Assembly: GCF_900110455.1 (NCBI RefSeq)
Contig: NZ_FOIS01000004.1
Span: 1-64,000, forward strand
Length of the DNA stretch: 64,000 nt
Source of the DNA: Natrinema salifodinae
GTDB lineage: Archaea > Halobacteriota > Halobacteria > Halobacteriales > Natrialbaceae
Direction: 5' to 3'
A model generated the notes under the pieces. It saw only the letters and a program-made list of their open reading frames with translations. It searched no databases and was not told the origin of the DNA. A program made the translations under genes and the position numbers. How positions within the stretch are numbered: position 1 is the first letter of the stretch; the number at the start of each line of letters is the position of its first letter. Of this stretch, positions 58,740 to 59,651 are shown piece by piece.

Positions 58740-58823
58740 TCGGCGTCGACGCGTCGCGAACTCGTCGCCGCCTCGCGATCGGTTCGTCTCGTCGGCACGC
58801 GGTGACCGCATTCGTAACGATAC

Positions 58824-59620
58824 CAGTAGTTGGTAAGACGGTTTCTTTATTCAGCGTGAGGAGTGAAACTCGCGTTCAGTATAGATGAAGGACATTGCAG
58901 TGCTACGGAACGATCGTCACGGGAACGGACGATCTTTTTACGACGGCTTTCGCCACACTACCGAGTAATGCTTCCTCCATACCGGATCGGCCACGACTGC
59001 CCATGACGATGTGATCCACTCCCATGTTCTCGGTATATTCGAGGATTTTCTCATCAGGCGCTCCCGCCTCAATCACTGTTTTGATTTCACGGTCACGTGC
59101 TGCACCCTTGCTACGGTACTCGTCAAAGATCTGTTCGATGACTTCACGTCGCTCCTGCTCGATTTGTCGAGATTTCTCGTAGTCAAACCCCTCAGCGCGC
59201 ACCTGGTTGAACACGGTGAGCGGATTGAGGACGTGCAAGAGAGTTATTGTCGGCTCCGGTATCTCTTCTAAAACGTATTCAAAGGCGCTCTCAGAACTGG
59301 ATGAGGAGTCTACCGGAACGAGGATATGCTGTTCCATGTCTATCATTCGCTCCGAATGGGCACCAATCTTTCCATTGGGTGTAATATATAGCACAGATTC
59401 GAATGAAACAGACACATTCGTGAACATTAATAAGACTGTCGTGCTAAGATACTCAGACATCGGTGTGTGCTGCATACGCGCCTTGTGTTCGGCACGATAC
59501 TACGGTTACATCCCGTATACGATGAATCCGTCAGCGGTCAATACCACACGTACTTATCAAACCGCCCGACTCAGTTTCAGATAATAATTCTGAATAAAGA
59601 AACCGCGCTACTATCTACTG
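58824..59620. mobile_element. Transposon-like element carrying uspA, with inverted ends
   Basis: 31-nt ends at 58824-58854 and 59590-59620 are inverted copies matching at 26 of 31 positions, with a perfect 16-nt core CGGTTTCTTTATTCAG. Similarity continues a little inside (TGAAACT at near-equal distance). The ends are flanked by ATAC at 58820-58823 and 59621-59624, a 4-bp direct repeat like a target duplication. The 797-bp interior is much more AT-rich than its surroundings and contains one intact gene, uspA, but no transposase. It looks like a non-autonomous element (MITE-like) carrying a stress gene. Confidence 0.65.
58903..59337 (-). CDS. Universal stress protein, UspA family
   Basis: 144 aa. 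HILVPVDSSSSSESAFEYVL opens the Rossmann-like fold, TITLLHVLNP the second strand, and MGSRGRSGMEEALLGSVAKAVV the ATP-binding G-2X-G-9X-G(S) motif, ending VPVTIVP. The motif implies the ATP-binding subgroup. Codon use is noticeably more AT-rich than in neighbours. The gene sits inside an inverted-repeat-bounded element, 49 nt from one end. ATG 59337 (MEQHIL) or 59346 (MIDMEQ) could start it; a TATATATT box lies near 59383-59391 on the minus strand. Confidence 0.93.
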   Translation of the reverse strand: MEQHILVPVDSSSSSESAFEYVLEEIPEPTITLLHVLNPLTVFNQVRAEGFDYEKSRQIEQERREVIEQIFDEYRSKGAARDREIKTVIEAGAPDEKILEYTENMGVDHIVMGSRGRSGMEEALLGSVAKAVVKRSSVPVTIVP

Positions 59621-59651
59621 ATACCGAGACGCGATTACGGCCGCGCCCGAC

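Follow-up and report, generated by a model that had tools for sequence, protein, structure and literature searches.

The uspA element and its locus

The window analysed, a 64-kb (64,000 nucleotide) stretch of the Natrinema salifodinae genome, contains a 797 bp element (58824–59620) located between two genes that encode proteins of 247 and 251 amino acids (Table 1). The element opens with CAGTAGTTGGTAAGACGGTTTCTTTATTCAG and closes with its imperfect inverse, so that 58824–58854 and 59590–59620 form 31-bp inverted ends (26/31 identical), bounded on both sides by ATAC. A first-pass annotation had described these ends and flanks, together with an AT-rich interior and one intact uspA in the absence of a transposase. 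The coordinates proved exact to the base; the G+C content was 48% in the element interior versus 68% in the window, and the sole credible gene encodes a Usp-domain protein (Pfam Usp, E = 3.5e-30). When the 64-kb window was scanned with profiles of the ends, no further copy was found.

The open frame of uspA reaches 59475, which corresponds to 190 amino acids. Judged by a homologue from a Natronococcus plasmid, for which the annotated gene has 144 aa, this frame is over-long and the start codon probably lies at 59337. This plasmid gene, which lacks the ends, is 86% identical to the uspA of the element. The G-2x-G-9x-GS ATP-binding signature could be read from the sequence of the product (GSRGRSGMEEALLGS).

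The two neighbouring genes were also found next to each other in 19 congener loci, 6–110 bp apart and with the element absent. Removing the element and one ATAC from the window would leave a spacer of 111 bp. The empty site anticipated by the first-pass annotation was therefore recovered at the level of gene order in all 19 congeners; a base-exact join was not alignable in them, the intergenic spacers of 6–110 bp being hypervariable.

Table 1. Coordinates of the features of the window element and of related loci. Positions without a locus name refer to the window.
Feature	Position	Strand	Basis or remark
Left neighbour gene, 247 aa	57996..58739	+	adjoins right neighbour without element in 19 congeners
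Left target duplication ATAC (NTAN type)	58820..58823	.	sequence; NTAN duplication family-wide
Left end (LE): 31-bp terminal inverted repeat CAGTAGTTGGTAAGACGGTTTCTTTATTCAG and conserved subterminal part GTGAAACTCGCGTTCAG	58824..58884	+	74.7 bits against LE model
Cargo gene uspA, universal stress protein, ~144 aa	58903..59337	-	Pfam Usp 3.5e-30; start from annotated homologue
Right end (RE): 31-bp terminal inverted repeat CAGTAGATAGTAGCGCGGTTTCTTTATTCAG and conserved subterminal part CTGAAACTGAGTCGGGCGGTT	59545..59620	-	end comparisons, RE model
Right target duplication ATAC	59621..59624	.	sequence
Right neighbour gene, 251 aa	59652..60407	-	same synteny in 19 congeners
Three-gene 2.5-kb cargo in opposite orientations, two genera	L009 2773-5621 and L043 6281-8923		same LE and RE
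Orthologous Natrinema cassette site with three unrelated cargo genes	L331, L334, L335, L333		
Cassette interrupted by nested IS5-family element	L134 393-2107		8-bp duplication GCGCTGTG
Large transposons: ISH3-related DDE transposase with Cas5-like, Cas10-like and Cas7-like genes	L277 2345-8913 (Natrinema pellirubrum pNATPE01), L201, L215, L255-L262		
Conserved 246-aa protein	L281 10840-11580 and homologues		alignment A9; modelled as reduced Cas10

The ends define a cassette family in Halobacteriales

A search of the host genome with the window element revealed that its ends recur elsewhere without uspA, with matches that include 90% identity over 88 bp and 86% over 79 bp. The two ends are distinct from each other, with approximately 67 bp conserved in LE and 84 bp in RE, of which the terminal 31 bp are common to both. 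Three further complete elements were present in the host genome. Element B (2849 bp) encodes a cystathionine gamma-synthase, a MOSC protein and a monooxygenase; element C (1917 bp), flanked by CTAT on both sides, encodes several regulators; element D (946 bp) encodes one 215-aa protein that we read as VOC/glyoxalase-like. Weaker copies enclose a sodium symporter, a DUF2270-type membrane protein and others, some of the names given to the cargo of these copies and of elements B to D being putative readings by eye. Beyond the host, 44 of the 61 genomes of its family contained RE, and LE was detected in 125 of the 293 genomes sampled from the order Halobacteriales (49/87 genera). Related copies of the ends thus exist both within the host genome and beyond it.

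Pairing of ends that each scored at least 20 bits gave 94 non-redundant LE/RE pairs of 275 bp to 12.9 kb. Identical 4-bp flanks were found in 52 of these, compared to 4.75 expected from re-pairing (maximum 11 in 2000). TA was central on both sides (NTAN) in 62 pairs, 51 of which had identical flanks, and none of the 94 had identical 5-bp flanks. Nearly all matching flanks are thus TA-centred and all stop at 4 bp, which identifies NTAN as the target and 4 bp as the length duplicated. The G+C content of the element was below that of its locus in 90/94 pairs. A few long or unmatched pairings among the 94 are doubtful and were kept out of the evidence: a 12.9-kb pairing of a lone RE (C1:17472) with an LE (C1:30330) was rejected, having no target site duplication (TSD) and a host-like G+C content, and the L123 (7.1 kb) and L075 (5.3 kb) pairings, also without TSD, were not used.

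A Pfam scan of 127 cargo frames identified about a hundred different families, mostly as single occurrences. These included P450, SDR dehydrogenases, PLP enzymes, Na/Ca exchanger, DUF2270, response regulator, GNAT, PIN, PAP2, sensor kinase, helicase, methyltransferase and HEPN families, among others; the shortest family members (275–390 bp) have little coding capacity. No DDE transposase was encoded by the 127 frames (two large elements were scanned separately) except for an IS5-type transposase in the 1.7-kb element L134. This transposase does not belong to the cassette; it is part of an insertion nested within it that has inverted repeats of its own and an 8-bp repeat (GCGCTGTG). TnpB genes in L115 and L136 were likewise not accepted as cargo, both being doubtful pairs with weak ends and no TSD.

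At one chromosomal site, related Natrinema species share the same insertion, flanked by GTGGATTAC and TTACACCAG, with interiors that encode a 174-aa secreted-type protein, a 76-aa zinc-ribbon-like protein or a 66-aa membrane protein; in a fourth species LE has been lost. A segment that matches the 174-aa cargo at 97% identity occurs without ends in another species. The 2.5-kb three-gene cargo of host element B recurs in genome G049 with 89% identity, inverted relative to the same ends. The different cargo at one site, the inverted cargo and the homologues without ends show that the ends act as a frame for gene exchange, which may proceed via repeated capture or homologous recombination.

Large transposons with matching ends

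The first-pass annotation had pointed to a possible autonomous element with the same ends, and candidates sharing the 31-bp ends and 4-bp NTAN duplications were found. Transposase homologues led to ten large elements of 5.8–10.9 kb with ends of the CAGTWG...TTCTTTATTCAG type. A perfect 4-bp NTAN duplication flanks 9/10 of them. Eight were checked by script (ATAA, TTAC, ATAC, ATAA, TTAA, GTAA, ATAT and ATAT) and that of L257 by eye: the script had anchored one base set early, and the printed ends give TTAT on both sides. L201 has no target duplication. The annotation of L277, L201, L215 and L255-L262 consists merely of a transposase and hypothetical proteins. In the Natrinema pellirubrum element, an RHH antitoxin/ParE-like toxin pair lies immediately upstream of the transposase gene (L277 6390-6972).

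L215 (Haloferax sulfurifontis; flanks ATAA/ATAA) and L201 (Halomicrobium urmianum), the starting point for this group, were recovered among elements from families of the order other than that of the host. They are 6.3 and 6.6 kb in length and encode transposases of 618 and 610 amino acids. These match DDE_Tnp_1 (2.7e-9) and score 131 bits against the ISH3 model, far below its 225-bit cut-off and so outside the family threshold; of four transposases inspected, three have a Y(2)R(3)E(6)K box. Against a cassette RE model built without L201 and L215, the transposase-side end of these two scored 47 bits, and it contains the subterminal CTGAAACTGA box of the cassettes; the same end of the other large elements scored 5–14 bits. 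On the basis of this score and box, the L201/L215 subfamily is the best candidate partner. Neither a Cas7-like gene nor a transposase closely homologous to the candidate was found in the host genome. The ISH3-like transposases that it does encode (C2:478239 and C6:58787) were discounted as partners since they are without LE/RE-type ends, and no partner is recognisable in the host genome at present.

CRISPR-derived genes in the large transposons

Most of the large elements have three conserved genes between one end and the transposase. The Cas5-like product matched PADLOC Cmr3 in 12/12 members (best 1.6e-8) and the Cas7-like product matched PADLOC Csm3 in 12/15 (best 7e-8); the Cas7-like assignment rests on these profile matches, the AlphaFold model of this protein having a pLDDT of 38. 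The third product, a conserved 246-aa protein with an invariant RHDAHK motif near its N-terminus, models as a reduced Cas10. Its AlphaFold model (pLDDT 83.5) had 39 structural matches with Z ≥ 5, all of them type III Cas10 chains (Csm1/Cmr2), the best at Z 12.0 over 229 residues with an rmsd of 4.5; Foldseek alone gave a weak match (E = 1.4). PDB sequence searches returned nothing useful.

Across four named elements the Cas7-like protein is 82–93% identical while identity between the transposases falls to 35%. GTDB genomes contained 32 Cas5-like loci whose flank was long enough to inspect; in 23 a transposon end lies 92–114 nucleotides downstream (0.0035 expected per window), but a near full-length transposase is kept in just six. 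No general nuclease gene was seen beside the Cas-like genes. In some copies a short (220 aa) TnpB-like RuvC-type protein adjoins the Cas7-like gene (L201 5893-6555, L258 10984-11643 and L273 10782-11399), and this protein is 94–99% identical between different genera.

The partner cargo thus comprises diverged Cas5 and Cas7 homologues and no CRISPR array, array-like repeats being absent from L277, in which arrays were checked. This set matches the published description of HRAMP, an array-less CRISPR derivative of haloarchaea for which a defence function has been proposed (PMC8730458) and which derives from type III systems (PMC12669027). It differs from that description in that the module is carried by transposons, where one end and a DDE transposase flank it, in its third gene, which models as a reduced Cas10, and in that no general nuclease gene was seen; neither PMC8730458 nor PMC12669027 mentions a link to transposons. 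The module may be defence cargo or a component of transposition. We think it improbable, and offer it as speculation, that the reduced type III-like module (Cas10-, Cas7- and Cas5-like) takes part in transposition, for example through RNA-dependent target selection or control. If it did, the cassettes, including that with uspA, would be the satellites of transposons that contain CRISPR-derived components and are unlike all known CASTs.

Discussion

The reading that we consider highly probable is that 58824–59620 is a non-autonomous transposon, a mobile insertion cassette with uspA as its passenger, for which the best candidate mobilising enzyme is the ISH3-related transposase (approximately 610–620 aa) of larger transposons with the same ends. 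This DDE transposase would act in trans, presumably binding the subterminal boxes of LE and RE and cutting at CAGTAG/CTACTG, after which the cassette would insert at an NTAN site, here ATAC, and generate the 4-bp duplication. The transposons concerned also encode the putative Cas5-like, reduced Cas10-like and Cas7-like proteins, and it is the subfamily in Haloferax sulfurifontis and Halomicrobium urmianum whose end is closest to the cassette RE. Interiors are replaced between fixed ends, which makes the ends a reusable frame for genes. The ends, duplications, family, absence in congeners, swapping of interiors and candidate partners are direct observations, and together the related copies, the site that is empty by gene order and the candidate autonomous elements bear out the transposon-like interpretation of the first-pass annotation. 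We infer from them that the window element is mobile; mobilisation in trans, the choice of transposase and any benefit of uspA are correspondingly putative.

The inverted repeat of the window is modestly unusual by itself, since a 26/31 match was reached in 1/100 block shuffles of the region, and alone it is not strong evidence. That the segment is an ordinary one with a chance repeat can nevertheless be practically dismissed: the beyond-chance evidence is the recurrence of both ends and the family-wide 4-bp repeats, to which the absence in congeners adds. The swapped interiors suggest a different alternative, in which the ends are recombination sites that form a frame of the integron-like or homologous-recombination kind. 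Insertion by transposition would then be ancient and rare, and genes would now enter and leave mainly through recombination between resident ends. Three different interiors at the same Natrinema site, a cargo shared by two genera at 89% identity but in opposite orientation between the same ends, and cargo homologues outside cassettes all agree with this. The many exact NTAN duplications at different sites, however, point to frequent transposition, past or present; the ends have no linked recombinase gene, and recombination and transposition can coexist. We regard this frame as a tentative, somewhat unlikely explanation.

It is also conceivable, and in our view unlikely, that the cassettes are real but are moved by a different, unsampled transposase, with the RAMP-bearing ISH3-related elements sharing just ancient ends. 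The partner subfamily was found in 2/293 genomes and is far rarer than the cassettes (125/293), and most RAMP-bearing elements have another transposase-side end (8–13 bits, LE model), both of which would fit such an enzyme. Against it, the 31-bp terminal repeat and the unusual 4-bp NTAN duplication are common to cassettes and large elements, and L201/L215 have a transposase-side end that conforms to the RE model of the cassettes, subterminal box included. Apart from the nested IS5, no transposase other than the ISH3-related type was seen between LE/RE-type ends.

Structurally, and in the way it is proposed to move, the window element is classed as a mobile insertion cassette (MIC), having transposon-type inverted repeats, a target-site duplication and a passenger gene without a transposase. 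MICs were first described in Bacillus as MIC231, which is moved in trans by the IS231A transposase (PMC3913671); the title of a cited paper terms IS231-MIC231 elements modular (PMC3913671, PMC3129680). Like MIC231 and related bacterial mic elements, the cassettes have transposon ends and a target duplication around passengers. Unlike MIC231, they are archaeal, with other ends, a 4-bp NTAN duplication and very many unrelated cargoes, and their mobilisation in trans is a proposed one. MITEs are short (less than approximately 600 bp) and non-coding, whereas the window element is 797 bp with an intact uspA. The shortest cassettes (275–390 bp) do resemble haloarchaeal MITEs (Haloquadratum MITEs, ISH2 and MITEHsal1/2), but in others the varied genes span from hundreds of bp up to several kb. 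The TSDs of the haloarchaeal MITEs are 10 bp for ISH2 and 6–8 bp for MITEHsal2, and in Haloquadratum a coding ORF is present just in the ISH2-type MITEs (PMC3119063, PMC10264941).

The partner transposase is related to the ISH3 family (PMC2266710, NCBIfam NF033541), with which it shares the IS4-superfamily Y(2)R(3)E(6)K box in the 3/4 noted above, but it differs in its size and in that of its elements. The typical ISH3 target duplication is 5 bp (PMC2266710, PMC10264941), in contrast to the 4-bp NTAN of the large elements. Having a transposase and CRISPR effector genes in one element is a likeness to CASTs, which have Tn7- or Mu-type genes and a guide RNA; the partner instead has a single DDE_Tnp_1/ISH3-like (IS4/ISH3-type) transposase, with no Tn7/Mu genes identified, no array and no sign of guided insertion. 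The ends, NTAN duplication, archaeal host, number of cargoes and partner differ from the descriptions found in the literature, and no account of the LE/RE cassettes was found in the literature searched, which comprised papers outside subscription. We read them as a large and apparently undescribed family of haloarchaeal mobile insertion cassettes.

Gene exchange is extensive among haloarchaea, and what carries the genes is frequently unclear. The cassette family is one concrete vehicle, with small two-end frames that acquire individual genes or short gene sets, exchange them and disperse them across genera, and its members are nearly invisible in annotation because they are without a transposase. 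As the apparent HRAMP module sits in a transposon beside a DDE transposase, its function becomes directly testable.
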